Below are positions 2,857 to 64,000 of a stretch of 64,000 nt of DNA, in pieces; position 1 is the stretch's first letter; each line of letters starts with the position of its first letter. The stretch spans positions 868,001-932,000 of the forward strand of contig OX637805.1 in the NCBI GenBank assembly GCA_951802425.1, written 5' to 3'. Made by a program: the position numbers and the translations under genes. This DNA is from Clavaria fumosa (lineage: Eukaryota; Basidiomycota; Agaricomycetes; Agaricales; Clavariaceae). The notes under the pieces are model-generated. The model was not told the DNA's origin, ran no database searches, and worked only from the letters and a program-made list of their open reading frames with translations.

Positions 2857-2861
2857 GTATG

Positions 2862-4349: not shown

Positions 4350-4354
4350 GTATG

Positions 4355-35484: not shown

Positions 35485-35947
35485 TGTTATGACCCCATCC
35501 GATCACATAAGCACAATCCCTGCTCCGGACTCCAGATCTGCACCAACTCTGGCCATCTCCAATCTGCTCCTCCACAACTCTGCATCCTCTGCTCCATGCT
35601 TTCCTCGGACTCTGTTCCACCATACTTTGGACCTTTCAGACTTCATTCTAGAACCTTCTCCCTCCATCCCCTCATTCTGTTTACCATTGGGAGGATGCCC
35701 TTGACCCATGGGAGTCATTTTCTGTTGTTGTTTCTTTGTTCCATGAAAATTGCACAGGCACTTGTGGTGAAACCCTCCTAGTAATTTGATATATACTATG
35801 TTTCAAGTACTCCTATACTCCTGTCCTTGCAGTATAAGATCCCACCTGTATCTCCCTGTTCTGCAGTTCGAATATTAACATCTCTTGATCCTAAACATCT
35901 CTGAGCTTTCGTCCTCATTGTCCTCAACATTCTCCATGTCATCTGAC
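35485..35947 (+). repeat. LTR of C2, first segment
   Basis: The LTR starts TGTTATGACCCC and is interrupted by solo LTR A2. It continues at 37440-37554, is interrupted again by element C (37555-51916), and continues at 51922-51955 up to solo LTR D7. Removing the insertions and one copy of each target duplication gives a colinear partial C-type LTR. Confidence 0.8.
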
Positions 35948-37434: not shown

Positions 37435-37439
37435 CTGAC

Positions 37440-43174: not shown

Positions 43175-43179
43175 GTCAC

Positions 43180-43871
43180 GGTCCTAACAAGGTTAGCGGC
43201 GAAGGGGTTAGCAGAGTGGAGCGGAGATGTTCTATTGGAGTCCGGTCGGAGTCCGATATCAGTGAAACGGAGAAGTAAACAAGAGGAAGGAGACTTATGG
43301 GACTGCGGCCTCAACGTATGTGTTGTGCCACCACGTATATACTTGTCCCTATTTATCAAACAAGAACAATACCTAAGAGAGAATCAGAACGAAGGTCAAA
43401 CTCCGAAGTGATCGGAGTCCGTTGGAGTGGGTTGGAGTTGGTCGGATGACGTGGAGAACGTCGAGGACGATGAGGACGAAAGCTCAGAGATGTTTTTGGA
43501 ATCAAGAGACGTTATATTCGAACTGAGGAGCAGGGAGATACAGGTGGAAACTTATACTGCAAGGACAGAGTATAGGAGTAATGTGAAACAATGTACTTAT
43601 CAAATTACTAGGAGAGTTTCACCACTTGTGCCTGTGCAATTTTCATGGAACAAAGAAACAACAACAAAAAAGCAACTCCCATGGGTCAAGGGTATCCTCT
43701 CAATGGTAAACAGAATGAGGGGATGGAGGGAGAAGGTTCTGGAACGAAGTCCAAATGGTCTGAAGGCCGGCGGAGTGAAGTCCGATGAAGGTGTGGAGCG
43801 GATCGGAGTTGGTAAGGAGTTCGGAGTCCGGAGCGGGGGTCGTGCTTATGCAAGTGGATGGGGTCGTAACA
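43180..43871 (-). repeat. 3' LTR of element C (main part)
   Basis: This continues the 6 bases at 37555-37560 and ends GGTCGTAACA. It is shorter than the 5' LTR mainly by a 25-bp gap near 43799. Next to it, 43872-43884 (GTATCCCCCTCTT) is the polypurine tract on the minus strand. Confidence 0.88.
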
Positions 43872-43884
43872 GTATCCCCCTCTT

Positions 43885-44107
43885 AGGGTCGAACCCCTGA
43901 GACCCTGTGGCCAAGGTCCGCGTGAACACATGGCTCCCATAACAAGTTAGCATCAGAGTTTCGCAGCGTCTCGAGCGGAGTCTGAAAAAATTTTGGGGGT
44001 CAAAAGGCTGTGCACGTCGTGCAACACTTTTTCTCTTCTTTAACCTGCTACCATCATCACTAGCCCCTAGCACAGGCAATCTATACTTTTTTTCTTTAAA
44101 AACCTCA
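43885..44107 (+). promoter_or_regulatory. Putative promoter region of the antisense gene in C
   Basis: 223 bp lie between the polypurine tract and the ATG of the antisense gene. It holds a pyrimidine-rich stretch (ACACTTTTTCTCTTCTTTAA) and TTTTTTCTTTAAAAAC just before the ATG, as in many fungal promoters. The left part is conserved in the C2 fragment at 35347-35484. Promoter activity is inferred. Confidence 0.4.
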
Positions 44108-45112
44108 ATGTCGCATAACCTGAGCACACCTGGAGCGGGGCCCAGCCGGCCTCCTCGCCCTCGACCACGCCCCGTGGCCGCCGTCCCCGCGCAGTTGCAT
44201 GTGGAGGATGAGGACCCTGAGATCGCGGTCCTCATGTGCCAGATCAAGGCACTGAAGGACAAGAAGGCGCGGGAGGAGGAGGAGCGGCAGAAGCGGGAGG
44301 AGGAGGAATGGAAGAAGAGGGAGGCCGCGGACAAGGTGTGGCAGGAGGAGATGGAGAGGGCGAGGGCGGTGGAGGTGAAGCGGAGGGCGGAGGAAATCGC
44401 GAAGGCGCAGGGGACGGGGAGGAAGCGGACGCCAGCCACGGAGTCGGACACGGAGCGCACGGACTGCGCGCGATGTGTCCGGCTCGGGATGGGGTGTGTG
44501 TGGCCGAGCGGAGGGCGGGGCACCGCGTGTGTTGCGTGTGCGGCGGCGAAACAGTGGTGCGGGGGCGGAGAGGCAGAGGGGCCAGAGCAGAAGAAATTCC
44601 GCTCCGCACGGTTGAAGAAGACCGTGGTGGAGGAGGAGGAGGAGGTGAAGGAGGTGCGGGCGCCACGGGCAGACGTGGACAGAGCGGAGGCAGAGCGGAC
44701 CGGGGTGGTAAGAACCATCTACGAGTTGGTGGTCTGCGGGGTGTTCGAGTTGGAGGAGTGGCGGAAGGAGGCAAGGGCGGAGCGGAAGGAGATGAGGGCG
44801 GAGCGGAAGGTGGTGGCGGAGGATCGGAAGATCCTCTGGGAATTTCTGATGGGGAAGCAGGGAGCAGGGGAGGAGAAGGAGGAGGCGGAGAAGATGGTGG
44901 TGGAGGTGGCGGGTTTGGAAAAGGGGGTGGAGACAGAGGTGGAGAAGAAGGAGGTGGAGGAAGTGGGAGCAGAGAAAGAAGCGGAGGCAGAGAAGGAAGC
45001 GGAGGTGGAGAAAGAGGTGGAAGTGGAGGAGGGAGAAGTTAGAGCAGAGTCCGGGCTTAAGGAGCCCGAGGGAGTTTTACAAGCGTTGCCCAGCTCGCCC
45101 CCCTCCGCCTAA
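44108..45112 (+). CDS. Antisense Zn2Cys6-like coiled-coil protein of element C
   Basis: The 334-residue protein is encoded opposite to gag-pol, between the chromodomain end and the 3' LTR. Residues 1-35 are Pro/Arg-rich. Residues 45-100 are charged heptads (KALKDKKAREEEERQKREEE), a likely coiled coil. Residues 120-151 hold six Cys with spacing C-x2-C-x6-C-x10-C-x2-C-x6-C (CARCVRLGMGC, then TACVACAAAKQWC), which fits the fungal Zn(II)2Cys6 consensus. From 165 on are further Glu/Lys-rich helices. There is no gag-like or enzyme motif. The frame is intact although pol in the same element has several lesions. It is probably a nuclear DNA-binding protein; target and role are inferred. It differs from typical transcription factors by lacking the Lys/Arg-rich loop and the fungal middle homology region. 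The overlapping frame at 44236-45042 is a low-complexity shadow. Confidence 0.7.
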   Translation: MSHNLSTPGAGPSRPPRPRPRPVAAVPAQLHVEDEDPEIAVLMCQIKALKDKKAREEEERQKREEEEWKKREAADKVWQEEMERARAVEVKRRAEEIAKAQGTGRKRTPATESDTERTDCARCVRLGMGCVWPSGGRGTACVACAAAKQWCGGGEAEGPEQKKFRSARLKKTVVEEEEEVKEVRAPRADVDRAEAERTGVVRTIYELVVCGVFELEEWRKEARAERKEMRAERKVVAEDRKILWEFLMGKQGAGEEKEEAEKMVVEVAGLEKGVETEVEKKEVEEVGAEKEAEAEKEAEVEKEVEVEEGEVRAESGLKEPEGVLQALPSSPPSA

Positions 45113-45564
45113 AAAAATAAATAATTTATCTACATTATTATTTGTTTCTTATTTATTTATAAATTTTATAAATTTTTTGTTTTATCTCTGAACTTGAGTG
45201 AAGTAAGCGGAATGAAAGAAAATAAAGTAAGACAAGACAGAGAAGACGAAGAGAGATTTGGAGATGGACTTGGGAGAAAAAATAAAAAGTTTGGAGTTTT
45301 TGGAGAAAGGAATGGAGAGAGAGACAGAGAGACGGAGAGACAGAAATACAGATTTATTTTTATTTTTTATTTTTTGTTTCAGAGAAGACGGAGAAGCGAG
45401 AGATGGGTAGTATAGAACAGAAAATGTACGTAAGGAGAAGCATAAGAGAGATTTCGGGGTATCGGAGTGAACAGAGAAAAAAGACAGAATTGTATTGAAT
45501 GGAAAATGTATGTAAATAGAAGCATAAGAGAAATTTCGGGGTATCAGAGTGAACGGAGAAAGGT
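45113..45564. other. AT-rich convergent 3' region in element C
   Basis: The segment lies between the stop of the plus-strand gene and the stop of the minus-strand pol. The first 70 bases are almost pure A/T with AATAAATAATTT, a plausible polyadenylation region. A direct repeat follows (AATGTACGTAAGGAGAAGC near 45423 and AATGTATGTAAATAGAAGC near 45507, each followed by ATAAGAGA and TTTCGGGGTATC). Confidence 0.5.
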
Positions 45565-48500
45565 CTAGAGGGTATTGAGAGGTCCGGGCTTGTTCGGATA
45601 AGCTTGGTGGAAATCCGAAACGGCCTCAGAGGCATGAACAAGTTCCATAGCGGGAAGCCAGGATGTTTCCTCATTGGATCCTTCGTATCCGGACCACCGC
45701 ACCAGGTATAGGAGTTTGCAGGTGCGGCATTTGTCGATCTTGGAGTCGAGCACTTCGGAGATTTCGTGCTCTAAGTCTCCATCAATCTCTACTGGAGGAG
45801 GCGGGGTGATGGTACGATTCGGAATTGTATTCGGAGTGACTGGCTCCAGCATGGAAATGTGGAAGATGGGGTGGACGGCTCGCATGGCCTCGGGGAGTTG
45901 GAGTACGAAGGAGTGCGAACCGGCCTCTCCGATGATTTCGAAAGGTCCGAGGAACTTGTCGGAGAGTTTTTTGGAGGGTCTGGTTGTATGGAAAAACTTT
46001 GCCTTAACGTATACTCGGTTTCCGACCTTAAACTCCGGTGCCGGAGTCCGACATTTGTCCGCCGGACCCTGATAGCGACTCTGCGCTTCGGCGATTTGGT
46101 TATGGAGTTCTTGGTGCAGCTGATCCAAGTCTACAGCGAGCTCTCAGGCACGGACTGAAGTTACTTTGCATTCGGGGAATACCAAGATATTCGGATGATA
46201 ACCCTTGTTCGCGAAGAATGGAGAAACCCCAGTGGTGGCGCTCAGGGCATTGTTGTAGGCAAACTCGGTGAGGGGCAGAAGCTGCGACCAGTTGTCCTGC
46301 TGGTAATTGCAGTAACAACGGAGGTACTGTTCCAATGTCTGGTTAGTCCGCTCCGTCTGTCCGTCGCCCTCCGGATGATATCCGGAGGTGAAGTGTAAAG
46401 TCATGTCCAGGACTTTACCCAACAAGCGAAAAAAACGGGAAACGAACTTGGAGCCGCAATCAGAGGTGACATGCGACAGAACTCCATGTTTCGAGAAGAC
46501 GTGGAATACGAATAGACGGGCCAACTCCGTGGAGTTCACTTCGTCAGTCATCAGGATGAAGATCCCCTGCTTCATAAACCTATCAACAACCACCAATATT
46601 GCGGTAAAACCAGAGCTCTCAGGGAGTTGCTCAATGAAATCCATTGAAATGGAATTCCACGGTTTCTCGGGTATGGGCAGCTGCTTGAGCGTTCCATACA
46701 GCTTATGCCGAGGGGCTTTTGCCATACCACAAGTTGTGCAAGATTTGCAAAAGTCTGATGTGAATCCTTGGAGTTTCGGCCAGGTATAATCCCTGAAGAC
46801 CAAGGCCGTAGTCTTGGTCCTACCGAAATGTCCGGCGAGCGGGTGATCATGTCTTGCATGTAAAACGCGGAGTCGGAGGTCATTGACGTCCGGTACATAG
46901 ATCCGTCCGTGCTCGTGGAGAAGTCCGTCGTCGTCCATGGACCACTTAGGGTCCGCGGAGTTCGAGCAGAGGTCTTCTAGGATCAAGCAAGAGTCCAGAC
47001 CGGATGTCCTCTCGGAGTTGATGATTGTCAATCACAAACGACGCGCGGAGTGCGGGTACGTAAAGCGACGAAGCTCGGAGAGACAATATCAATTGTTCGC
47101 TGGAGAACATCAGTCGGAGGTTTTGCGGATTGACGCGGGCATAGTCGCTATCCCCCTCTTTGGGATAGACGTCCCACGTCTAGTCAACGCATCGGGTTTC
47201 ATTCCGAGGCACCCAGGGCGGAATTGGATCACGAAATTGAACTGGGAAAGGAACTCCGACCACCTGGCTTGATGCCGGGTGAGCAAGCGGACCGTGGAGA
47301 AGTACTCTAGGTTCTTGTGGTCAGTAACAACGTCGACTGGAATTTCAGAACCTTCGAGATAGTGCCTCCAAGCGGTAAACACCTCAAATATAGCGAGGAG
47401 TTCCTTATCGTGGGTGTCATAGTTCAGTTTGGAGATGCCTAGGGTGTGGGAATGAAAAGCGATGGGATGGACTTCACTGTTGGAGGCAACCGTAGAAAGT
47501 ATCGCAGCGACAGCGTAGTCCGAGGCGTCTGTTTCAACTATCAGCGGAGCTCCAGGAATGAAGTGCAAGAGGATCGGAGCCATGGAGAACGTGGTTTTTA
47601 GATAGTCAAACGCAGACTGGCAATCATCAGACCATTGCCACTCGATGTTTTTATGTGTCAAGCGGTTCATTGGAGCGACAATCTCAGAATAGCCATGGAC
47701 GAAGCAGCGGTAGAAATTGGCGAACCCGAGGAAGGACTGGACATCCTTGACCTTCCGCGGGGTCGGCCAGTCCTGTATAGTTTTCACTTTAGCTGTGTCC
47801 ATAGAAAGTCCAGATGGAGATAAAACAAATCCGAGATACTCCATGGTTTCAGTGTGAAATTCACACTTAGCCGGGTTCAGGAAGAGACCGTGCTTCCGGA
47901 GCCTTCGGAGTACCTCTCGGACGTGCTCAACGTGTTGTTTCGGATCCTCGGAGTAAATGAGGATGTCGTCGAGGTAGACGACCATGAACATGTCGAGAAG
48001 GTCAGAGAATATGTCATTCATAAAGTGCTGGAATGTGGCGGGTGTGTTTGTGAGCCCGAAAGGCATCACACACCATTCAAAGGATCCGTATCGGGTGCGG
48101 AATGCGGTCTTCCATTCATCACCCTCAGCGATATGGACCAGGTGATACACGTGTTGGAGGTCAAGTTTTGTATAGATTCGGGCTTTTCCTGGAACATCGA
48201 GAAGATCTTTAGTCAGTGGGAGCGGATAACGGTCTTTTTTGGTCAATTTATTGAGACCACAGAAATCAACGCATAATCGGAGCGTTCCATTCTTCTTCCA
48301 GACAAAGAGCACAGGTGCTCCGTGCGGAGAACAGCTCGGACAGATAAATCCGATGTGGAGGTGTTCGTCCAGAAACTCGCTGAGTTCGCTGAGTTCGGAC
48401 TGCGACAGAGAATAGACTGCACCTGGCGGAGGGGATTGGCCATCCAGCAGGTTGATTTTTAGATCATACGGTCGATGCGGAGCAAGGGTGTCTGCCTTCT

Positions 48501-49974
48501 TTTTACTGAAGACATCTGGAAAGTCCCTGTACTCCTCCGGAATGGAGAGGAGATCCTGGGGGGTGGTGTCGGGAATGTTGAACGAAGCGGAGGCCGCGCA
48601 CATGGACTCGCTCAACAACGTCATGCCAAAGACTTGGGATCCGCGAAGTCCACAAGCCATGGCGAATGCAGCAGCATTCACAAAGGAAACCTTGGGTGTC
48701 TCCTGGAGAGACGGAGTAGACGGAAAGGTCAGAGATGGAGTCAAAGATGGAGACAGAAGCCGAGATGGAGACGGAGTCCGGGCTTGGTTCGGAGTCACTG
48801 CAGATGACATTTGAACCAGAGTGCATGGAGCGGAGATAGACAGAGGGACAGAGGTGGACAGAGGGACAGAATGGAGAGTGCTGGCCGGTGCACCCTCCGG
48901 ATCAGATTTTGGAGATTTTTTCTCATTCATAGATGGTCTGGGCTTTATCTGGCCAGTAGTCCAGTCAACCAGCGGGTTGTTTTGGAACAGCCAATTCATT
49001 CCCAAGATCACATCACTAGAGGGATCAAGATCAGTAACTACAAACAAGGCGTCGGTCGGATCCATGGCGGAGAGCCGAATGGATAACCAGACTGCTTCGG
49101 TAACCCATACGGAGGTAGTGTTGCCACAGCTATGACTAGTAGCTGACTAATAGCCATAGCCATAGCTGATTGTAGCTGTAGCCTAGCTGGCAATCAGCTA
49201 TGGCTACAAAGCAGCTATGACTATGGCTATTGATATTTCCATAGCTGATAGCTGCAGCTAAGCTATGGCTAGGTTTGATGTAAAGTTTCAAGTGAAATAA
49301 GTTGAGAATAGCACTTTATCTTTCAAATATTTCACCATTAAATGCTCTATTATCTTGTTAGCCATGCTGTAACTCACCTTTTTATCCCTGCTGTGCTGAC
49401 TTTATCATTCTTAGACTTGTTGCATATGAACCAGCTTATGAACTGACAGTGACAGGGGTTGTAACTGATGATAGTAGTGGCATTGCACTATTAGTCAAAG
49501 TAGCAGTACTGCAGTGTCATGGCCACCAGGGCATTACAGCAGTGAGAATGAACACATAATTATAATATAAGAGTTGGCAGCTAAGTCATGACTATAGTCA
49601 GCTAAACTCACTAGCTGCAGCTATGACTACAGCTAAGACAAATTGAGACCAGCTAGAGTAGTCACTAGCCGCAGCTGGTCTAGCTGGCTCGTGACTAGTC
49701 TAGCTGCGGCAACACTATACGGAGGTGGTCCCATTAATAAAAACGACCTCCTGAGGGGTCACCGGAGTTTTCGGAAGACAGAAACGAGAAGCAAATTTGG
49801 CGTCAATGAAACAAAGTTCAGCACCAGAGTCTATCATTGCTTTGAATGGAGAAGAAATAGAAGGAGAGGAGGCAAGAAGGGAAAGAGAACGATGAAAGGA
49901 AAGGGTATCGGGTATAGGTTTAGTATGATCGGAGTCGGAGCAGCCGGAGAGTCATACTGTGCTCTCTGGGCTGC
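45565..49974 (-). pseudogene. pol: Pol of gypsy element C, chromodomain type, with MITE
   Basis: Order on the minus strand: protease with MIDSGAELCF (about 49830), interrupted by a MITE at 49116-49717; RT with LRLCVDFCGLNK, MPFGLTNTPATFQ and the intact YLDD box (47110-49065 frame); RNase H (ETDASDYAVAAIL, DALTR); integrase (HARHDHPLAGHF, CKSCTTC, DGQTERTNQ, 46144-47031); C-terminal GPY-type region and chromodomain (EVLDSKIDKCRTCKLLYLVR, WSGYEGSNEETSW) ending at 45565. TGA at 46144-46146 looks like an Arg CGA changed to TGA. Frameshifts lie between 47031 and 47110. Otherwise the gene is well preserved. Confidence 0.88.
49116..49717. mobile_element. hAT-like MITE in element C protease
   Basis: The 602-bp element has terminal inverted repeats TAGTGTTGCC(A/G)CAGCTA and a perfect 8-bp target duplication TACGGAGG (49108-49115 and 49718-49725). 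Both are typical of hAT elements. The subterminal parts are packed with variants of AGCTATGGCT and TAGCTG on both strands, as expected for transposase binding sites. There is no ORF, so it is non-autonomous. Excision would restore the protease frame. Confidence 0.88.
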
Positions 49975-51153
49975 TTAATCTTTTTTTTTTGGCACGGAGT
50001 CATCTCCGTCGGAGGTGATTTGTGCAGCGCTGGCACTGGCCTGCGAGGTCCGCTTACGACACTCGTTGGCTTTGTGGCCTGCTATTCCGCAGAATAGGCA
50101 CAGATTATTATCGAAACGCCATTGGTGTTCCTCTGGAGTCAGTTTTCCATCCTGACCCAGATGAGCTTTCTTTGTGTTGCTGGGGCTACCGGAGTTAGTG
50201 GAGCCCTCAGCGGCCTTTGGAACGGAGTTTCCGGAAGTTGAACTGGAGTTCACCGGATGCTTTTCTGATGGTTTCTCGGGCTTGTTATTAGCGCCGGAAG
50301 TGTTCAGGGACTTGGAATTATCCGAAGTCTCCTTTTTGATGGTGTTGTTAGGCATCGGAGCCTTAACGGAGTCCCGAGAGATCTCCTGCTGCCGAGCCCA
50401 ATAACGACCATCAATCGCACTGGCTTGCTCGCGGAGTCCGTGGAGCATGTCCGCGCGGTTAACGCGGGCCAGTTCGTCCTTGATGCGGCTGGCAAGTCCT
50501 TTGTAGAACTGCCGCTGCAACACATATTCATCCCAATGGACAATGGACGCGAATCTGTTGAACGAAATGGTATATTTCGTCAACTTCTGGTCCTCACGCA
50601 TCCGGAGGCATTTGAGTTCGAACTCTGCCTCATGGATCGCGTCGTAAGGACCAAAGTTCTCTGTAAGTTAAGCAACGAACATCTTATAGTTCGAAAGGAC
50701 TGGATGGCCTTTGCCATCCAGGATCATTGGTTCAAACCATTCCAGGGCGAAGCCCCGGAGAAAGGAAAGGACATAGTGTACCTTATGAGAATCAGATTTG
50801 AATGCTCTAGGGCGATCAAGGAAGTTCAATTGGCATTGGACCAAGAAGCTTTTCAACTTCTTAGCATCCGAGCCATCGAAGGTATTGGGGTCTCGTGGTT
50901 TAACCGTCTCCGGGTGCTTGTTGGCGTCAATGATCTTCTGAAGGAGACGCACCGGAGTTAGTTCGCGTTTGGCTTGAGATGTCGGAGGTTCATTTAGCTT
51001 GTCGTCATCGTCAGTGACCGAGGGATCTGACTCTTCGTCGTGGTCTGGAGGTCCAGACACACTCGGAGTCGGAGTATTGTCGGCCGGTTCTGGAATGTCG
51101 ACGTCGTCGGCAACAGGAGGTGGAAGTCGAGCACCGGAATGTGTAGTAGGCAT
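49975..51153 (-). pseudogene. gag: Gag of gypsy element C, one stop
   Basis: From ATG 51153 (MPTTHSGARLPPPVAD) a 392-codon frame runs to 49975, broken by a single TAA at 50668-50670. It contains an acidic N-terminus, a capsid domain (PNTFDGSDAKKLKSFLVQCQ, then FALEWFEPMI), a Ser/Asn/Lys-rich linker and a knuckle CLFCGIAGHKANEC (about 50053-50094). Confidence 0.85.
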
Positions 51154-51180
51154 TGTTAAGTTTGTATATACGAGGTTTGA

Positions 51181-51192
51181 AGTTCGAATATA
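51181..51192 (-). promoter_or_regulatory. Self-primer binding site of element C
   Basis: Plus-strand AGTTCGAATATA, one base from the 5' LTR edge, equals the predicted RNA 5' end, whose complement TATATTCGAACT is at 51533-51544 in the LTR. A TATA (minus strand AGTATAAGTT, 51569-51578) lies about 30 bases upstream. The match is 12 of 12. Confidence 0.7.
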
Positions 51193-51193
51193 C

Positions 51194-51916
51194 TGTCACA
51201 GTCCTAACAAGGTTAGCAGCGAAGGGGTTAGCGGAGCAGAGTGGAGATGTTCTATCAGAGTCCGGTCGGAGTCCGATATCAGTGAAACGGAGAAGTAAAC
51301 AAGAGGAAGGAGACTTATGGGACTGCGGCCTCAATGTATGTGTTGTGCCACCATGTATATACTTGTCCCTATTTATCAAACAAGAACAATACCTAAGAGA
51401 GAATCAGAATGAAGGTCAAACTCCGAAGTGATCGGAGTCTGTCGGAGTGGGTCAGAGTTGGTCGGATGATGTGGAGAATGTCGAGGACGATGAGGACGAA
51501 AGCTCAGAGATGTTTTTGGAATCAAGAGACGTTATATTCGAACTGAGGAGCAGGGAGATACAGGTGGAAACTTATACTGCAAGGACAGAGTATAGGAGTA
51601 ATGTGAAACAATGTACTTATCAAATTACTAGGAGAGTTTCACCACTTGTGCCTGTGCAATTTTCATGGAACAAAGAAACAACAACAAAAAAGCAACTCCC
51701 ATGGGTCAAGGGTATCCTCTCAATGGTAAACAGAACGAGGGGATGGAGGGAGAAGGTTCTGGAACAAAGTCCGAACGGTCTGAAGGCCGGCAGAGTGAAG
51801 TCTGATGAAGGTGCGGAGCGGAGCGCACAGAGTTATGGCGGAGCAGATCGGAGTTGGTAAGGAGTTCGGAGTCCGGAGCGGGGGTCGTGCTTATGCAAGC
51901 GGATGGGGTCGTAACA
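51194..51916 (-). repeat. 5' LTR of element C
   Basis: The 723-bp LTR runs from TGTCACAGTCC to GGTCGTAACA on the plus strand, followed by the target duplication GTGGC (51917-51921). It contains several CGGAGTCCG palindrome-like words. Confidence 0.9.
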
Positions 51917-51921
51917 GTGGC

Positions 51922-53018: not shown

Positions 53019-54717
53019 GTATCCCCCTCTTAGGGTCGAGCCCTCAAGACCCTTAAGTCACTGTATTTCACTATGTGGGTTGGAGAGAGTTGGAGTTGGA
53101 GAGGGTGGAACTGGAGCTGGAGTTGGAGTTGGAGGTCTGGAGCAGGTTGGAGATGGTGCAGATGGGTCAGAGGGTGTTGGAGATGTGAAGCAGAGGTGTG
53201 TGTCAGGACCCATTCATTTTTCCTTGCCCAAGCCGACTCCACCCACATCCACGAGCTTCTCGACGACCCTCTACAACCTCGCGAGTCCCTCTACACACTT
53301 CCGGGACCCGCTGTCTCCTTCCGGAAGCCTCTCCAACCTCCCCTGTGCTCACACGACACTCGCGACCACCATGCTGTACTCGCGATGCTTCCTAGTACTT
53401 CATCCTACGCGCATACTTCACCCGGACCCACCAATCCTATGCGCGACACACCGATATGCGTCTACTTCCACCAGCACGTGACTTGCCGCGCGGCACCCCC
53501 GGCGCTACCACTATCAGCGCCAATACGTTACCAGCATTACGACCGTTACTTGTGTTACCAGCATTACCCATGTGACCACCCGCCCATAGGTCACCTGCAT
53601 CACTAGCGTCACCCACGTGATCGCTCTTATGATCTCGCGACCTTAACACTCAAATGCGCCACCAACGGTCAGCTGTATGTACACTTCAAATATGCGTCCC
53701 TTCTTCCTCTCAGTCATCTATAATTACGTTACTTATGATCTGAGAATCCCTCCGTAGTTATAGTGACGTATATACTTATTTAACTAGGTCGCGACCTGTG
53801 ACAGGTCATCTTCACGACCTTACCTATGCATACCTAACCCCTCGCGACCTTAGTAGAATACACGCCCAGTCACTTTACAACTAAACATACCCCGTACTAC
53901 TATAGTCTTGTCGCCTGGTGACCTCTGTACCTTCCCTTTTTCGTTATACTCTCTCTACGTACGTATATAAGGTCTCGCATGTACTTATGGTACTCCAGAC
54001 TTGATATTGACGCACATTGGTTTAAGCTTGAGGCTAGTACGCCCTTTGAGCTTGGAACCATTGCGATTGATAGGTCTTGTCTCTCTTGGTGACCACAAGA
54101 TCGCCAAGACACACTCTACTCTGTCCTAACTCACCCTCTGCGCTCCTACAACTTGCGCGATCTAAGTATTCTCTATTATTCATCTTGGTACTGATCTTAG
54201 AACCCTACAGGTTCACCCGTCGGTTGGCAAAGTCATTGCCTTCACCGACACATTCCTCAACACTGTCGCGACCACCGCGACCCTTCCAACATTGTCTATT
54301 TCCTTCACCTTGTCTTTTTCCTTCTCTACGCTTCGTCGGTCGACCTCGCGACCTTCTCAGCATTGTCACTTTCTCCCACCTCGTCTATTTCTTTTTTCAC
54401 GCTTCGTTGGTGGACTTTGCGACCCTCTCAGCGTCACCCATTTCCCCCCTCTTCGTCAATTTCCTCCTTTACACTTCGTCTACCGACTTCGCGACCTTCC
54501 GGGACCGAGCATTCTCGACTGTGCTCTACAGTTGATTGGTCTTAGCGAGTTTCCAACATAGGTCACCAACAAGTCGATCTCCGGCACTACTATCGAGACA
54601 GGACAGGCCCTAACAGTGTGGAGCTGAGAGAATCGGAGTTTGGGAGCTTCGGAGTTTTTGAGCAGAGGTGTGGAGGTGAGGGAGTCAGAGTTTTGGAGAT
54701 TCAGAGTGGAGGTACAG
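53019..54717 (-). mobile_element. Interior remnant of element E, split by solo LTR A3
   Basis: 53019-53195 and 54621-54717 are colinear E interior next to the 3' LTR, in the place that corresponds to the antisense promoter region of C. Both parts are Gly/Glu-type repeats of GGAG words (TTGGAGTTGGAG). No ORF remains. The right side is cut by the full-length A element at 54718. Confidence 0.6.
53201..54615 (+). repeat. Solo LTR A (copy A3)
   Basis: The 1415-bp LTR has perfect target duplication GTGTG (53196-53200 and 54616-54620), inserted in E. It is one repeat unit (about 75 bp) shorter than A2 in the tandem array near 54480. Confidence 0.92.
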
Positions 54718-56186
54718 TGTTAGGGCCTGTCCCGTCTCGATAGTAGTGCCGGAGATCGACTTGTTGGTGACCTATGTTGGAAACTCGCTAAGACCAATCA
54801 ACTGTAGAGCACAGTTGAGAATGCTCGGTCCCGGAAGGTCGCGAAGATGTCTGAGAAGATGTAAGAGCAAAGAAAGACAAGTATAAAGGAGGAAGACGTC
54901 GTTGGGAAAGTTGTGAAGTCGGTAAACGAAGCGTAAAGGAGGTAATTGACAAGGAGGGGGGAAATGGGTGACACTGAGAGGGTCGCGAAGTCGACTGATG
55001 AAGCGTGAAGAAAGGAATAGACAAGGTGGGAGAAAGTGACAATGCTGAGAAGGTCGCGAGGTCGACCGACGAAGCGTAGAGAAGGAAAAAGACAAGGTGA
55101 AAGAAATAGACAATGTTGGAAGGGTCGCGGTAGTCGCGATGGTGTTGAGGAATGTGTCGGTGAAGGCAATGACTTTGCCAACCGATGGGTGAACCTGTAG
55201 GGTTCTAAGATCAGTACCAAGATGAATAATAGAGAATACTTAGATCGCGCAAGTTGTAGGAGCGCAGAGGGTGAGTTAGGACAGAGTAGAGTGTGTCTTG
55301 GCGATCTTGTGGTCACCAAGAGAGACAAGACCTATCAATCGCAATGGTTCCAAGCTCAAAGGGCGTACTAGCCTCAAGCTTAAACCAATGTGCATCAATA
55401 TCAAGTCTACAGTACGAGAAGTACATGCGAGACTTATATACGTGCATACAGAGAGTATAACGAAAAAGGGAAAGTACAGAGGTCACCAGGCGACAAGACT
55501 ATGGTAGTACGGGGTATGTTTAGTTGTAAAGTGACTAGGCGCGTGTTCTACTAAGGTCGCGAGGGGTTAGGTATGCATAGGTAAGGTCGCGAAGATGACC
55601 TGTCACGGGTTGTGACCTAGTTAAATAAGTATATACGTTGCTATAACTACGGAGGGATTCTCGGATCATAAGTAATGTAATTATAGACGACTGAGGAGAA
55701 GAAGGGACGCATATTTGAAGTGTTCATACAGCTGACCGTTGGTGGCGCGTTTGAGTGTTAAGGTCGCGAGGTCATAAGAGCGATCACGTGGGTGACGCTA
55801 GTGATGCAGGTGACCTACGGGCGGGTAGTCACATGGGTAACACTGGTAACGCTGGTAACATATTGGCGCTGGTAGTGGTAGTGCCGGGGGTGCCGCTCGG
55901 CAAGTCACGTGCTGGTGGAAGTAGACACGTATCAGTGTGTCGCGCGTAGGATTGGTGGATCCGGGCGGAGTATGCGCGTAGGGTGAAGTAGTAGGAAGTG
56001 TTGCAAGTACCGCATGGTGGTCGCGAGTGTCATGTGAGCGCGGGGGAGGTTGGAGAGGTTTCCGGAAGGAGATAGCGGGTTTTGGAAGTGGGTAGAGGGG
56101 TACGCGAGGTGGTAGAGGGTCATCGGGAGGACCCTAGATGTTGGTGGAGTTGGCTTGGGTAAAGGAAAAATGAATGGGTCCTGACA
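54718..56186 (-). repeat. 3' LTR of element A
   Basis: The 1469-bp LTR starts TGTTAGGGCC and ends GGTCCTGACA. Right of it TTACCCCCCC is the polypurine tract on the minus strand. The plus-strand copy of the RNA start (AATATCAAGTCT) lies near 55399. Confidence 0.92.
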
Positions 56187-56302
56187 TTACCCCCCCTTCA
56201 AGCCTCGAGCCCTGCGAGAGTGGAGATCACGTGATGATTAGTCAGCACGATGTTTGTTGATCAGGTCATGACACCCGAAATTTTTCTCTAAGTCCAACCA
56301 CC
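56187..56302 (+). promoter_or_regulatory. Putative promoter of the antisense gene in A
   Basis: Only 116 bp separate the LTR from the gene's ATG. It contains the palindrome ATCACGTGAT (56226-56235), directly followed by GATTAGTCA, resembling bHLH and bZIP sites. The segment is conserved in position with the C and E elements. Promoter function is inferred. Confidence 0.4.
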
Positions 56303-58411
56303 ATGGTCTCTGCTTTCATCAAACAACACAAAACCGAAACCAACAAGGACGAGAACGAGGTCGCGCGCAAAATGCGCATTTTCGATGAAACGGAACCCAG
56401 CCTCAATCTGGGGATCCTAGAAGACGCGCTGGCCCATCAAAAGGCTGAGCAAGAGCGATGCGTGCGTCTTTGCGAAGCCGCAGGCCGCCGCAAGACGCGG
56501 GGCAACGTCGCGAGTATGAGTAAGACTGCAAGCGACGTTGTGGAGTCAAGCGGGGCGGTGGAGAACGTCGCGGGCGAGGCTGACCTGTCGCCCGCGGACT
56601 TCCTAAAAGCTTGGAAGAAAATAGGGTCAGTGATGGAGAACAAAGAGTGGAACGAAAGGGAGCGAGAGGTGCGTAATAGTAGTTCTCATTCCCATTCATT
56701 TCTTCTGATTGTTACATTCCAGGATTGCGATAACTGCGTCGCAAAGGGCCAACAGTGTGTGTGCAGCACTGCCGGCAAGTGTCGCCAGTGCGCAGAGGAC
56801 CATGGGAAGTGTTCCTGGGTCCAGGAATTTCGTCGATGGCGCGTCAAGGCCGAATTCGGGTGGAGCGACGTGCGAATCGATGAGGCTCTGCGGCGGGCAG
56901 AGGCACCAGGATCAGCTGCGACAGTGACCCCAACAGTCACGAGTCGAGTGGGAGCCAAACTCCCCACTATTACGATTCCGGGGACCCCAATGCGAGCAGT
57001 ACGCGGAAAGCGAGCAAGGACAAGGTTGCGGTCGCCGACGCCTGGTCTGTCAACAAGGAGGCGAGTGGCGAAGCCGTCGTCATCGAAGGGGTTGGTGGAG
57101 GGAGAAGGAAAGGTTGCGGGGACCTTGGTCCCCAGGACGGATCTGGAATGGGAGCTCGCAACGCTCCGTCAGCAACTTGCAGAACCCATGAAGAAGATAG
57201 CGTGGGTATACAAGTCGCATCAGGAGACGGAATTGGAGGTAGAATTGGTAGCGGCTAAGCGTGAGTTGGAGGCGTTACGGTGGGGCAAGAAAGGTGAATA
57301 TCAGTTTGTCCTGGTTCCTGTAGTTTCATACTGAGCTCACGACTTTTATTGGCAAAGGCAAAGAGGTCGCGGAAGTCGCGGAATTGACGACGCGGGCTGA
57401 GGGAGCAGAAAAGGAGTTCGAGGCACTCCATGGGGAGTGGCAAGGTAAGTTTTTACTCGAATTGTTGCCTTGTAGATTGACTTCCGTGTGATTCAGACCA
57501 AGAAGTCGAGTTGAGAAACGTGCGCCGGGAGTTGGAGAAGTTGCGGAAGGAGAAAGAGGGTAAGTGAAATAGTCGCGAGTATGAAGTTGACTCATTCGTG
57601 TCTATAGGATTGTTAATGGGGGCGGAGGGGACGTGCAAGGAGTTCGAGGAGGTGAGCAGGGTGATTGCAGTGATGAAAAAGGAGGCGGAAGGTCAGTCAT
57701 CATTCTACTCTGTGAGATCGCGAATTAATCTTCTTATTGGTTTAGGTTGGAGGGTGGAGTTGGGGGACGTCCGGTGAAGATTGGAAGAGACCGAAGAGTC
57801 GGAGAACAGTAAGTTTTAGTGGTCACGGGTATGAAGGTGGACTAATCTGTTATTTGTGTTTATCTAGACCATAAGGTCGAGCTGGAGGAGGCTGAGGAAT
57901 CGGAACGAAGTAAGTTCCATAGTCGCGAATATAACACAAACTAATCTTTGTTTTGTAGGTTTGTTCGTGACTGTAGAGAGGATGGAAAAGGAGTTGAAGG
58001 CGTCGAGGGAGCAGGAAAAAGGTAAGTCCTCGCGGGTTTTGTTTTTAGCAACAAACTGAAGATTGGTTTTTAGAGTTGTGCGACCAATGTGCGAGTATGG
58101 TCGGTGAGCTCCGCGAGGCTCGCTTTCAAGGACGGCGAGGCCTCGAGACGGTCTTCTTCGCCTATGAAGACCTTTTGATGAAGTCGCCGAAAGAACTCCC
58201 ATCGTGGGTAGAGCAATGGGCAGAGCAGGAGCAACGTCGCGTGAGGAGGGAGCTGTTGGATATTCCAAGGGTGGACAATTGGGGTTTTGAGTTGAAGGCT
58301 CCCGAGGCTGGAGAGGAGGAGAAGGGGGAAAAGGAAAAAGTCGCGAGTGAGGAAGGCGGGGAAGGAGTAGAAAGGTCGCGAAAGGAGAAGGAAAAAGCTC
58401 GCGACCAGTAG
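56303..58411 (+). CDS. Antisense multi-exon Zn2Cys6-like coiled-coil gene of element A
   Basis: The gene starts MVSAFIKQHKTETNKDENEV. Exon 1 probably ends at 56668; a 54-bp intron (56669-56722, GTGCGT to CAG) follows, optional because it keeps the frame. Exon 2 opens with the cysteine cluster C-x2-C-x6-C-x7-C-x2-C-x6-C (CDNCVAKGQQC to CRQCAEDHGKC, 56726-56812), which fits the Zn(II)2Cys6 consensus. A basic region (GKRARTRLRSPTPGLSTRRR) and Glu-rich heptads come next. From about 57293 on, six or seven further GT-AG introns of about 50 bp separate short exons coding Glu/Lys/Leu heptads. The last exon (from about 58075) reads LCDQCASMVGELREARFQGR and ends KEKARDQ at 58411. One exon near 57775 has a TGA. 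Introns in this direction would survive retrotransposition, because the genomic RNA is the other strand. Role inferred: element-encoded nuclear DNA-binding protein. Confidence 0.65.
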
Positions 58412-58509
58412 ATAAAAGTTTTCTTGTTGTATTTTTATTGCGTATATATGAATTGCTGTGAAGTCCGAAGTGAGAAAGTGAAGAAAAAATGAGAAAGAGG
58501 CGAGGAAAT

Positions 58510-61500
58510 TTATTGAGTTGCGTGAGTTGTGCGAGGTTTTTCTGGGTAGGTCGCATGGAAGTCCTGGAGGAGTTCCTTCAATCCGGAAAGTGACTCTATT
58601 GGTTCCCAGGTGTCGTCCTCGGGTCCATAACCTTCCCAATGTACGAGGTAGAGCACTTTCCTACCCCTCCTTCGAGAATCTAGTATGTCGGCGACTTCGT
58701 AATGTTGTTCGCCGTCAACCTTGATAGGGGGCAGGGGTTGCTGTTGCCGCTGGGGGAAAGCGTTGTCGTAGACCTTTTTGAGTAACGAAACATGGAAGAC
58801 GTCGTGAATTTCTCGCATCGATTTCGGTAACTGGAGACAATATGCGTGAGTCGAAACTTTCGCGAGTATGGGGAAAGGTCCGGCTCGTTTCGAGTCCAAT
58901 TTCTTCATCAGTCTCTTCGTTTTCACATTCCGCAAGTCTAACCACACCTTCGTTCCTTCTTTCCAGTCCGGTGTAACCTCTCTCTTCCTGTCCGCAAAGC
59001 GCGAGTAGGCCTCGTTCGCGACCTTGAGTTGATCTTGTAAGTGCTGATGGAGCATCTTGAGATCGGTCGCGACCATGTGGGCTTCATGCGCAGGTATCCC
59101 TTCGAGGGAAATTGTGAGTCTTGGGTGGTATCCCTTGTTCGCAAAGAACGGGGAGACACCAGTCGCGCTGTGGGGGGTGTTGTTGTATACGAACTCAGCG
59201 AGCAGAAGTTGGTGGGTCCAGTCGTCCTGTTGGTAGTTTGTATAGATTTGTATATATTGCTCCAAGATCTGGTTGACTCGTTCGGTTTGTCCGTCGGTCT
59301 CAGGATGATAGGCTGTGGAAAGATTTGAAGTAATATCCAAAGCCTGACATAACGAAGACCAAAACTTAGAAACGAATAATCTTCCTCTATCTGACACTAT
59401 GTCCGCGGGTAGCCCATGCTTTGAGAAGATGTGGGTGACAAAATGTTGAGCTAACTCTTTCGCAGTGTCGGTAGTGTTGGTGGAGATAAAGATTGCTTGG
59501 TTCGTAAGTCAGCAAATGACAACAAGAATCGAGTCAAAGGTCGCGGAGAGGGGGAGGGCTTCGATATGGTCCATCAAAATCGAAGACCAAGGTCGCTCGC
59601 CTATGGGCAAGGGTTTGAGGAGTCCATAGGGTTTGTGCCGGACGGGTTTTGCCCTTGCGCAGGTGTGACAACCACGGACGTAGACGGTTACGTCCTTTCG
59701 GAGTCCTGGCCAGAAAAACAACCTGTTCATTAGCTGGGTTGTCTTTCTTATACCTGGATGTCCTCGTAGTTTGTGGTCGTGATTGGAGCATAAGATATCG
59801 AATCGGAGGGAGTCGTGATCGGGGACGTATATTTTACCGTTACGAAGTAGTAGTGAGCCGTCAGGCGAGAGCGAGAACGCCTTGTCGCGACCTTGTGAAG
59901 CACCCTGTGATTTCTTGGAGAAGTAGGAGTCGCGAGGGGCATGTCGAATTCGCAAAATCAGGGCTTCTTCGTTGAGGATAACGGTTGCTCGAAGTAGTTC
60001 CGGCGGTATCGCGACCTTGTTGTTTTGCGCATTAGTCGCGGGTTGGTCGGACTTCTTCGGGTAGACATCGGGTCGTCGCGTGAGGGCATCTGGCTTCGCG
60101 CCTAACTTTCCTGCTCGATAATGAATAATATAATCGAAACTGGAAAGATTCTCTGCCCAGCGGGCTTGTCGGCAGCTGAGTTGCTTCGTGGTGGTGAAAT
60201 ATCGTAGGTTGTTGTGGTCTGAAAAGACCTGAATTTGGTATCGCGCACCTTCGAGGTACGCTCTCCATTGCTTGAACGCATCGTGTATCGCAAGGAGCTC
60301 TTTGTCGTAAATGTCATAGTTGAGCTCTGCGGCAATCATTGTACGTGCGTGGAAAGCGATGGGACGTAGCTCGTTAGTCGCGGGATCGGTTTGGGAGAGA
60401 ATGGCCGCTATGGCGTAGTCGGAAGCGTCGCATTTGAGGGTAATGGGGTGGTTGGGGTCATAGTGCCGGAGGACGGGAGCTTCGGTAAAGGCTTGTTTGA
60501 GGATATCGAAGACTTCTTGGCATCGTGGGCTCCACTTCCAAGGCGTGTCCTTGCGGAGGAGTCACGTAAGTGGAATAACGATGCCGGAATAGTTATCTAT
60601 GAATCTTCGATAGAAATTAGCAAAGCCTAAAAAGCTCTGAAGGTCGCGGATCTTCGTGGGTATGGGCCAACTTAGGATGGCCTGTATCTTCAAAGGATCC
60701 ATGGCAATTCCGTCGGGGGACACTATAACTCCAAGGTATTCGACCGTCGTGGTGTGGAAATCACACTTCTCGGGTCACGCATGTAAGTCTGCCTTGCGTA
60801 GATGTCATAGGACCTCTCGGACGTGGTCGCGATGCTGTTCGAGGTTGTCCAAGTAGATTAAGATGTCATCGAGGTAGACTACTACGTTGATGTCAACCAG
60901 ATCGTGAAAGATATCGTTCATAAGGTGCTGAAAGGTCGCGGGTGCGTTCGTGAGTCCAAACGGCATGACAAGATATTCGAACGTGCCGTAGCGAGTGCGG
61001 AACGCAGTTTTCCACTCGTCTCCTTCAGCTATCCTCATGTTGTTATACCCAACACAGAGGTCAATCTTCAAGTAGATTTTGGCCGAGCGTAATTGGTCGA
61101 CAAGGGTCTCAATTCGAGGAATGGGGTAGCGATTTTTGCGGGTGATTTTGTTGAGACCTCGATAGTCGACACAGAGATGAAGGCTTCCATCTTTCTTCTT
61201 CGCAAAGAGTACTGGTGCACCTGCGGGGGATTTCGATGGCCGAATGAAGCCTTTGTCCAACATGTTGTCCAAATAATCTTTCAACGTTTTTAACTCCACT
61301 TCTGACATGTTGTACAGCTTCCCGTGAGGAGGTGTTTTGCCTTCCTCAAGTTCAATTCGGTGGTCGTAGTCGCAGTGTGGAGGTAATTCCCAGGCTAGAT
61401 CTTCAGAAAAGACGTCCAGGAAGTCGTGATACTCGTGCAGGACTGTTTCTTCGGGTTTCGGAGGGGGTTGAGTGGTCGCGGAACTCGCGAGTATGGATTT

Positions 61501-62190
61501 GTTGTCGTAGGGGTTGCTCGCGGGTTGGAAGTATAGGAGACCTATAAATTCTCCTTGTTGTTCCAATCGACGAAGCGTGATAGCCTTGACCAATTGAACT
61601 TGTGGGGGTTTAGAGGGTTTCGGTGCCGAGTTCGCGAGGTCAGGGGAAGGTTTACTCAGGGGTTTCATGTCCAAAAGAGTGAGAGGGATAGTCGCGGAGC
61701 AGGCTGTCTGTCCGAAACTGAAAGTGAGGTTGGTCCAATCGATCCTAGGGTTCCAGGTTCGCAACCAATCGAGCCCTAGAACCACAGGAGTGAGAGGATG
61801 AGTTTTAGTGATGAGGAACTTAATGGATTGGATAGTATCGTCAGGGAATTTCGTATTAGCGTGGACGTAGTGGGTTATATTGGAGCTGGAGGAACTTCCG
61901 TCGAAGTATTGAAGTGGTAGAGGTTGCGGAAGTGGCATTAAGAGGTTTGGACAGGAGTTCGCAAGGGTGAAATCGATGAAATTCATTGATGCGCCACAAT
62001 CAATGAGAGTATTTAAGGGAATCGAGCTGAAATCTGGTATTTGTGTCTTTATGAGGAAGGATTGGGAAGACTGGGAAGCAATGGGAGTATTAGAAAGGTC
62101 GCGAGGAAACTGAGGGGAAGAGAAACTAGTCGCGGCCCACGTGAGTATGGGGGTTGGATCATCGTGACTCAGAGTTCCCCCGGAAGCTCC
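58510..62190 (-). pseudogene. pol: Pol of gypsy element A, chromodomain type
   Basis: Minus-strand order: protease ([15 protein letters not shown], about 62000, with Cys where Ser is usual in DSGA, then [13 protein letters not shown]); RT ([33 protein letters not shown], intact YLDD near 60850); RNase H (KCDASDYAIAAIL, TRRPD); integrase (HDHKLRGHPG, CHTCARAKP, DRGRLFVSKF, DGQTERVNQ); and chromodomain (EVADILDSRRRGRKVLYLVH, WEGYGPEDDTWEP) ending at 58510. All main parts share one frame with single stops at 60805, near 60560 and at 59509. Pol starts in a different frame overlapping the end of gag. Confidence 0.88.
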
Positions 62191-63724
62191 TGAGTCGCTT
62201 CCTCGTTTAACTCTTCGTGCGGGTCATCCACATCTTCTTCCACTTCTTCCTCGACTTCGTATTCTTCCTGTAATTCTTCCTCTCCTTCCTCTAATGTGAA
62301 GACGGCTCGTCTGGCTACTCGTCGATCGGGGCAAGCAGCGCTGTAGTGTCCGGGCTTTCCACATCTCATACAGAGATTTCCCTGATGACGACGTTCTCGT
62401 TCCTCATCGCTAAGGGGGATGTAGGGCGAGTTCGGATTCGGCTGGCGAGGCAGATTGGCGGGTCGCGGTGAAGTCGCGGGGTTCCCTGCGGCTGGTTGGG
62501 CGTTGTAGGATTATTTCCAGCGGCGGGGTAAGGTCGCAACGTCGCTTGGTAATTGTGATTTCCGCCTTGTTGAGCCAAAGGGCGATTTCCGCCTTGTTGA
62601 ACAGGGGGACGAGGAGTAGGAGGGTTAGCGCGGAATTGAGTTCAGCAGGTCTCACTCTCATACTCCCAGTGCCTCTGGTCAATTTGCATTGCCAAATCAC
62701 GAAGTTCTTGATACGTAGTGGGTTGTGGAATGACTTTCATGGCCTCTTTGATGCGTGTGGACATTGAGCGATAGAGTTTGGATTGTAAGGCGGCCAAGTT
62801 CCAGTTGGATTCGAAAGCGAAGGACTCGAAACGGATGATGTGGTTCGAAAACCGTTCGTTTTCGCCCATCTGCAACAAGCGAAGGTTCTGGTCGGCTTCA
62901 ATCTGCATGTTGACCACTCCAAACATCCCTCCAAACTCGCGGATGAATCCTTCCCAGGAATGTAGAGCCAGGTGTTCGGCATTGAATTGAAGGAGGGAGG
63001 TGTAGTGGCTCTGCGCGGTGTCCGTGAGGTAAGAGGCAGCGAAAGTAACCCTCTCGTGATCTCCTTGGAAGGTTACGGGCTTGGCGAAGAAAGTCATTAG
63101 GCATTCCGTGACGAAAGGTTTCCACTTGCGTCGGTCATGACCATTGAACAGTTCGGGACGCCTGGTGTCGAGCTTGGATTCTCGAGCGAAGGTGTCTCGG
63201 GCCGATGGTCCTTCGGAGGGAGGGGCCTGGTAATAGTAGTGGTGATGGTGGGTTCCAGGCACCTCATCTCGAAGCGCGGCGGCGGGGTGTGGGGGCATAG
63301 GGGGGACCGGAGGGACCTGCGGAGCTTCAGTCTGTGATGGAGGGCGAGATGCTGGTCGCGTCTCCATCTGGGGTACTGGTTGCGCTTCCGGTTGTGGAAT
63401 GCGGAAGGGCTCGACCGGAATCTCGAGGCGAGGGGCAGGTTGAAGCGTTGCTTCGGTCCCTATAGGGTCGCGAGGGAATGCCCTACTCGGAGTAGTGGCT
63501 GGCTGCATCCACGTAGGCCAGCTACTGCGAGGGGCGGTGTACCTTGGGATCCTGGAGACAATGGCTGGTCACTCATCGGGCATGGCAGGATTCGCGAAAT
63601 TCTGAAGAGATTGAGCCACGACCTGGAAAAGCGGGGCCATATCCTGGGGTCCTCTGGTGGGTTGAACCTGTCTTGGAGGTCGCGAGGGGGTATCCAGGTC
63701 GGGAGGAGTGTGACTGGAAGACAT
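62169..63724 (-). pseudogene. gag: Gag of gypsy element A
   Basis: ATG 63724 gives MSSSHTPPDLDTPSRPPRQV, a Pro-rich N-terminus with a TGA near 63572, a HHHHYYYQ tract, and a capsid domain (FNGHDRRKWKPFVTECLMTF to QIDQRHWEYE). A TGA follows at 62642, then a Gln/Asn/Pro linker, the knuckle CMRCGKPGHYSAAC (about 62325-62367) and an acidic tail ([14 protein letters not shown]). It is broken by at least two stops and frame changes. Confidence 0.82.
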
Positions 63725-63767
63725 AATGGTTTGTGTTATCTGGGTGTTGAGTGGTGGGGTGAGGGGG

Positions 63768-63779
63768 AGACTTGATATT
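63768..63779 (-). promoter_or_regulatory. Self-primer binding site of element A
   Basis: Plus-strand AGACTTGATATT, one base from the 5' LTR, equals the predicted RNA 5' end. Its complement AATATCAAGTCT is at 63956-63967 in the LTR, about 30 bases from a TATA (minus strand GTATATAAGTCT, 63989-64000). The match is 12 of 12. Confidence 0.7.
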
Positions 63780-63780
63780 A

Positions 63781-64000
63781 TGTTAGGGCCTGTCCCGTCT
63801 CGATAGTAGTGCCGGAGATCGACTTGTTGGTGAGTTAGGACAGAGTAGAGTGTGTCTTGGCGATCTTGTGGTCACCAAGAGAGACAAGACCTATCAATCG
63901 CAATGGTTCCAAGCTCAAAGGGCGTACTAGCCTCAAGCTTAAACCAATGTGCGTCAATATCAAGTCTACAGTATGAGAAGTACATGCAAGACTTATATAC
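63781..64000 (-). repeat. 5' LTR of element A (partial, with internal deletion)
   Basis: It starts TGTTAGGGCC. After TTGGTGA (63833) the sequence jumps to GTTAGGACAGAGTAG, which in the 3' LTR lies about 440 bp further on (near 55270). The whole tandem array is deleted, apparently by recombination between short GGTGA words. It continues beyond the window. Confidence 0.85.

Follow-up and report, generated by a model that had tools for sequence, protein, structure and literature searches.

Does a fungal retrotransposon carry, along with a gene of its own for a DNA-binding protein, a short word by which that protein could recognise its family? The question is raised by element A, a Ty3 chromovirus copy on the minus strand of a 64,000-nucleotide stretch of Clavaria fumosa (assembly GCA_951802425.1, contig OX637805.1, positions 868,001 to 932,000; hereafter the window, whose numbering is used for positions given without a locus or contig name). 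A first-pass annotation had described the element as saturated with the hexamer TCGCGA and had proposed an anti-silencing or self-recognition system in which a self-encoded DNA-binding protein reads it. Our analysis confirmed the observation and partly supported this interpretation. The reading that we tentatively favour from the sequence comparisons, at a probability of roughly 0.4, is that a self-encoded zinc-cluster protein reads TCGCGA and thereby regulates or de-silences its own family.

Enrichment of TCGCGA in element A and its family

TCGCGA was found 28 times in 54718-64000, with recovery of all nine positions named in the first-pass annotation; the window as a whole has 57 occurrences. 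Dinucleotide shuffles of 54718-63780 gave an expectation of 3.1 and none of the 300 shuffles reached 28, in agreement with the earlier claim of more than 20 occurrences in about 9.3 kb, far above chance. The observed count also exceeded the Markov expectations, which were 3.1, 6.8 and 16.0 for orders 1, 2 and 3, the order 3 model already holding pieces of TCGCGA itself. In the genome search (48.76 Mb, 17 contigs) the word occurred 12,877 times, or 2.64 per 10 kb, in comparison to 8,393 for the reversed word. The density was 24.2 per 10 kb in A-like DNA (214 in 88,474 bp) in comparison to 1.9 per 10 kb in the other DNA fetched (20 in 104,726 bp, six of the 20 coming from L052, a locus chosen for its TCGCGA cluster). 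A second chromovirus of the window, element B (43175-51918, 8.7 kb), carries two TCGCGA, one fewer than the approximately three reported before, no GTCGCG and no CGCGAC, and had no match to the antisense gene of element A in the genome search. The pile-up is thus real and confined to the element A family, where it lies in coding and non-coding DNA alike.

The features of element A to which the regional counts refer are as follows.

54718-64000, running on to about 64763 beyond the window, minus strand: element A (LTR, or long terminal repeat, matches; sequence reading; Pfam domains)
54718-56186, minus strand: 3' LTR, from LTR matching; motif counts were taken on 54718-56187
54926-55129, no strand assigned: tandem repeat of a 71-bp unit within the LTR (2.2-2.4 copies), bearing GGTCGCGA
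56190-56196, minus strand: polypurine-tract-like run of seven G on the element strand, adjoining the 3' LTR, read from the sequence
58510-59397, minus strand: C-terminal part of integrase with SH3_Tf2-1 and chromodomain (Pfam), three TCGCGA
59509-60339, minus strand: open reading frame (ORF) for RNase H and the integrase zinc-binding domain (Pfam), three TCGCGA
60805-61986, minus strand: reverse transcriptase ORF (Pfam), three TCGCGA
62642-63508, minus strand: gag ORF (Pfam), one TCGCGA
63781-64000, minus strand: inner part of the 5' LTR, running on to about 64763, some 763 bases past the window (LTR matches)

The remaining sites comprise eight in the 3' LTR, seven in the antisense gene (56303-58411), two in the leader and one between ORFs at 62099, so that the spread claimed earlier over LTR, pol codons in several frames and antisense gene was borne out. 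With 13 occurrences in 58412-63780 and seven in the antisense gene, the word is not confined to non-coding tandem repeats. The 3' LTR is the densest region (eight in 1.47 kb against 0.28 expected, an excess of about 29-fold; GTCGCG 10 in comparison to CGCGAC 0), and the 5' LTR adds five more beyond the window. The window has three more A-type LTRs that lack internal regions, at 2861-4352, 35946-37437 and 53201-54500, with six, seven and nine TCGCGA, respectively.

The possibility that the words are a neutral by-product, multiplied by local duplication and ancestral word bias and spread by copying with no reader, draws on the order 3 model, which accounts for a large part of the occurrences (16 of 28), and on the duplications within the element. 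Three LTR sites sit in the 71-bp repeat units, and the introns of the antisense gene within 57560-57958 are alike (GTAAG...TAGTCGCGARTAT), as would result from duplication of exon-intron units, and have TCGCGA in common. Some sites do arise by local duplication in this way, but most lie outside repeats, and we regard the neutral account as decidedly improbable, also in view of the mutation data below.

Outside the family, L052 holds at 439-719 (C1:483039-483319) a 93-bp unit in three copies, 98% identical and with two TCGCGA each, that lacks similarity to element A. Another TCGCGA-rich locus, L003, is not A-like; it is GC-rich with open frames resembling an ordinary gene, and therefore host GC-rich genes carry TCGCGA too.

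Form and strand of the word

GTCGCG is a stronger word than TCGCGA, with 40 occurrences in 54718-63780 in comparison to 5 for its complement, and GGTCGCGA occurs 3,465 times genome-wide in comparison to 1,738 for the reversed word. The LTR sites have a long common context close to GAAGGTCGCGAGG, while the internal sites share mainly the core. The site is better described by its core, TCGCGA, which reaches its highest density in the LTR in the form (A)AGGTCGCGAG, and the probe form of the candidate site for binding assays is AAGGTCGCGAGG. The extended form proposed earlier, TCGCGAGTATG, does recur at 56508, 57573, 58860 and 61485 (the last given before as near 61487). It was rejected as the main form and is a minor variant, the GTATG extension being present on just 4 of 28 sites. 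Genome matches to TCGCGAGTATG numbered 113 in comparison to 19 for the reversed control, and many pairs lay about 2,625 bp apart, a spacing that copying of the two sites in pol would give.

Strand bias was strong (GGTCGCG 26 in comparison to 5 for CGCGACC). A strand-specific (RNA) motif was considered and rejected, as the gag-pol bias of 13 to 4 is already predicted by codon shuffles with dinucleotides kept (means 5.9 and 2.1); this account does not extend to the one-strand bias of the LTR. These LTR properties, namely the highest density, one orientation, the long common context and the 71-bp repeats that bear the site, are what would be expected if a host transcription factor acted on an enhancer in the LTR. 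On this account the LTR would have gathered its sites through formation of the 71-bp repeats and through selection for a strong promoter, the excess in gag-pol would reflect earlier sequence and codon usage, and the antisense gene would do something else. We consider this alternative somewhat unlikely.

Coding-sequence controls

Within the gag-pol ORFs TCGCGA occurs in two of the three reading frames and CGCGAC in every frame. Under plain synonymous shuffles of the four gag-pol ORFs of A, TCGCGA was observed 10 times in comparison to 3.4 expected and sense CGCGAC 13 times in comparison to 3.9, with 0 of 500 shuffles reaching either count. When codons and dinucleotides were both preserved, the expectation was 5.4 for TCGCGA (9 of 500 shuffles reached 10), 5.9 for sense CGCGAC (0 of 500 reached 13), and 2.1 for other-strand GTCGCG, observed four times (29 of 500). 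Part of the gag-pol excess thus vanishes under the stricter shuffles (5.4 of the 10 TCGCGA being expected), which favours the host-factor enhancer, but an excess of about two-fold survives them, which would not be foreseen from a role confined to the promoter. Among the hexamers ranked, the GTCGCG/CGCGAC pair was 1 of 81 in A, 2 of 64 in copy L040, 1 of 72 in L043, 3 of 65 in L047 and 17 of 70 in L041, and TCGCGA itself ranked 10, 1, 9, 9 and 14, respectively. The results showed that the gag-pol excess is real and about two-fold, and weak in copy L041.

The antisense gene and its protein

The candidate reader is encoded on the opposite strand to gag-pol, with the following features.

56303-58411, plus strand: antisense gene between pol and the 3' LTR, seven TCGCGA; its 343-amino-acid open frame lies at 56303-57334
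56669-56722, 57560-57607, 57809-57867 and 57910-57958, plus strand: candidate introns
57560-57607, plus strand: candidate intron with TCGCGA at 57573, resembling the intron at 57910
57910-57958, plus strand: candidate intron with TCGCGA at 57923
56726-56812, plus strand: zinc-cluster-like module C-x2-C-x6-C-x7-C-x2-C-x6-C of the antisense protein

As an additional ORF, antisense to gag-pol and placed between pol and the 3' LTR, the gene is kept in many copies. The 343-amino-acid frame gave 125 genome matches at E<=0.1 with 33-100% identity, some of them being two exons of one copy, and two matching proteins in a large protein collection; a search of viral contigs confirmed no relatives. Read by eye, the spliced gene of copy A has an apparent stop in a later exon, and other genome matches also carry stops. 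Several matches are found less than 60 kb from a contig end (C1:5284331, C4:9578, C5:7754, C12:11813, and C1:20779 and 58834), and some of these are near-identical across contigs, perhaps as subtelomeric duplications.

Copies that match A at about 85-94% identity in their reverse transcriptase and integrase ORFs match it at about 52-81% in the antisense protein, which evolves far faster than gag-pol in the same copies (L040-L051), with the exception of the cysteine module. There the six cysteines keep a fixed spacing, with at least 15 of the 17 aligned sequences having cysteine at all six positions (C2, C5, C12, C20 and C30 invariant, C23 nearly so). The pooled ratio of nonsynonymous to synonymous differences (pN/pS) for the module was 0.19 over 16 sequences, which indicates purifying selection. 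Pairwise ratios were 0.04-0.19 in the six of nine listed pairs with finite synonymous divergence (three pairs were saturated), and for five close copies pN/pS was 0.37 in the module in comparison to 0.64 downstream.

The Zn(2)-Cys(6) binuclear cluster has the spacing C-x2-C-x6-C-x5..12-C-x2-C-x6..8-C, into which the module falls, and its first loop typically has more basic residues than that of the element A module. The Pfam family matched by the largest number of module sequences was Zn_clus (7 of 16, all below the curated cut-off, best E 0.17), while the member from the window had no Zn_clus match, even below the cut-off. A structural model of the module (mean predicted local distance difference test score, pLDDT, 69.7) gave six Foldseek matches at E<=10 among 350,542 PDB chains, with E 4-8.7 and thus none significant, all six being GAL4-type zinc clusters (GAL4, HAP1 or Pho7); VIA gave no match. 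As modelled, the module would resemble GAL4, HAP1 and Pho7 in how its cysteines are spaced, in the two short helices that follow the CxxC pairs, and in being joined by a basic linker to a coiled tail, and it differs from them in scoring below the Pfam threshold and in that TCGCGA is not a CGG pair. After the module, a basic stretch and then a heptad-like tail, a predicted coiled coil, were recognised by eye. The proposal of a self-encoded DNA-binding protein at 56303-58411 is supported in that the antisense gene is conserved and its zinc-cluster-like module evolves under purifying selection; the protein is a probable DNA-binding protein.

Site history and CpG mutation

Six copies (A, L040, L041, L043, L047 and L049) were aligned, with one ascertaining copy per site dropped from the counts. 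Intact TCGCGA was present in at least one of the six at 44 aligned positions. The motif cells comprised 82 intact, 83 with CpG-transition products only and 18 changed otherwise, so that 83 of the 101 altered cells were CpG transitions. Non-CpG changes affected 18 of 183 motif cells in all regions together in comparison to 73 of 373 other NCGCGN cells (Fisher p 0.003, optimistic since the copies are related). In gag-pol they affected 0 of 94 in comparison to 23 of 215 (p 2e-4, likewise optimistic, cells of related copies not being independent). The corresponding fractions were 9 of 60 and 15 of 53 for the LTR (p 0.11) and 9 of 29 and 35 of 105 for the antisense gene (p 1.0), again with p values made optimistic by relatedness. 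The lack of non-CpG changes at gag-pol sites is predicted neither by a promoter-only role of a host factor nor by a neutral by-product.

CpG deamination at motif sites was slightly below that of other CpGs (LTR 27% in comparison to 36%, antisense gene 20% to 27%, gag-pol 24% to 28%). Shielding of the motif CpGs from mutation was rejected as an explanation, since the difference is small and ascertainment could produce it. The two LTRs of A (54718-56186 in comparison to 63781-64000 joined to L009 2001-2763) differ by 27 substitutions, of which 25 are CpG transitions, and copy A is therefore young yet heavily CpG-mutated. CpG mutation in this genome appears like repeat-induced point mutation or methylation-driven, and CpG-biased mutation is described for Rhizoctonia solani AG8 in the accessible part of PMC4014442. 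With its two CpGs TCGCGA is among the most mutable words here and yet the most enriched, which counts against a neutral by-product; that about 44 double-CpG words appear to have been kept in the active lineage despite CpG mutation argues for selection.

Comparison with known systems

The first-pass annotation had likened element A to the VANDAL elements of Arabidopsis, whose VANC proteins bind short motifs. In the accessible parts of PMC5735166 and PMC10398659, VANDAL targets are described as tandem repeats in non-coding DNA, with considerable variation from one related element to another, and the VANC target words differ between relatives (YAGTATTAY in comparison to AGTTGTCC/AGTTGTAC). Element A is similar in that an element-encoded protein is proposed to read a short, family-specific, over-represented word, and in that some sites lie in short tandem repeats. 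Unlike the VANDALs, which are Mutator DNA transposons, it is an LTR retrotransposon with Ty3 domains and an antisense gene. One word is shared across its family in coding and non-coding DNA, unlike what those parts describe for VANDAL, and concentration in non-coding tandem repeats applies to the LTR part only. Nor does the word change with the protein, as TCGCGA is enriched in L040, L041, L043 and L047 (L050 and L051 are decayed) and persists in copies whose antisense proteins differ by a third or more. No second motif was found in the diverged subfamilies among L042-L051, the most diverged copies being too decayed to exclude one; words such as AGGTTG, GTTGCG and GTCACG appear in the decayed copies, consistent with the one word having decayed at its CpGs.

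VANC-type anti-silencing proper, in which the protein would bind the word and strip methylation or silent chromatin from the family, would account for a probable self-encoded DNA-binding protein together with a family-specific motif across most of the element, and methylation escape would pay in a family with CpG mutation as strong as that between the LTRs of A. It is nevertheless rather improbable, since the motif does not diversify between subfamilies, sites lie in coding DNA, there are just about 2.4 tandem copies, and CpGs inside the motif have mutated almost as frequently as the rest.

Plant LTR retrotransposons offer a parallel for the gene. Grande with gene23, RIRE2, and Retand with TRP28 have an antisense ORF between pol and the 3' LTR, and Retand combines predicted DNA binding with tandem repeats near this ORF, according to the accessible parts of PMC7264820 and PMC11963269. 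The extra gene of element A has the same position and orientation, but the element is fungal, word saturation is not mentioned for the plant elements in those parts, and TRP28 (PF04195) was absent from the Pfam matches at E<=10 for the 343-amino-acid frame and the 16 module sequences. HBZ of human T-cell leukemia virus type 1 (HTLV-1) is likewise an antisense gene read from the 3' LTR side, coding for a basic leucine zipper (bZIP) nuclear regulator with a coiled-coil dimerisation region. By description, the antisense gene of element A resembles it in starting on the 3' LTR side and in its predicted coiled-coil tail, and differs in that HBZ is a bZIP protein of a human retrovirus, to which the antisense protein is not known to be related by sequence. 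No fungal LTR retrotransposon with an antisense ORF, nor a TCGCGA system, was found among the open-licence papers listed, which were partly judged by title and give no proof of absence.

Interpretation

Recognition of TCGCGA by the self-encoded zinc-cluster protein would work as follows. The antisense protein, of nuclear type, combines a zinc-cluster-like module with a basic stretch and a tail predicted to form a coiled coil, and as a dimer it might bind the palindromic core TCGCGA, best as AGGTCGCGAG. The word would have accumulated in the family at its highest density in the LTR and more sparsely in gag-pol. Protein bound in the LTR would control family transcription, and protein bound along the body may mark or open the whole element, like an anti-silencing factor. 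We infer zinc binding, dimerisation and the role of the antisense protein as reader, and likewise the sign and target of the regulation. The palindromic core is a suitable target for a dimer, and a tail of the protein is likely to serve dimerisation. Subfamilies have kept both the word and the module, and the remainder of the protein drifts. Both points fit one reader for one word.

Two considerations weigh against this reading. A regulator centred on the LTR, or a host factor acting on an enhancer there, may account for the facts as well; and, insofar as de-silencing is meant, the absence of diversification, the sites in gag-pol and the near-normal mutation of motif CpGs depart from VANDAL, of which the family-specific pile-up in coding and non-coding DNA is the likeness that stood. 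A bolder version, in which the antisense zinc-cluster protein and about 44 TCGCGA sites in LTR, gag, pol and introns form a self-evolved recognition system that senses methylation through the two CpGs and keeps only unmethylated young copies active, as the retrotransposon's independent VANC-like invention, seems to us unlikely.

Structure and surroundings of element A

Assignment to the Ty3 chromoviruses follows from gag, reverse transcriptase, RNase H, integrase and a C-terminal chromodomain between LTRs, the Pfam domains (gag, RVT_1, RNaseH, Integrase_H2C2, SH3_Tf2-1, Chromo) lying in separate ORFs. Relatives of the reverse transcriptase ORF include Termitomyces, Moniliophthora and Trametes and also plant and animal records among the best 120 of 7,407. 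The pol frame of this copy has four in-frame stops, about 500 bp of the 3' LTR sequence is missing from the 5' LTR, and the 5-bp sequence TACAG flanks the element on both sides (54713-54717 and, in window-equivalent numbering, 64764-64768). The element is adjoined by minisatellite-like DNA with abundant CGGAGT/GGAGTT (L009 2770-3600), and similar words occur on the left flank.

Significance

An antisense retrotransposon gene is here paired with a candidate target word inside the same element, which makes its role directly testable by binding. If the protein does bind the word, self-recognition by motif accumulation would have arisen not only in VANDAL transposons but also in retrotransposons, and this with a word that, having two CpGs, is costly to maintain in a CpG-mutating genome.

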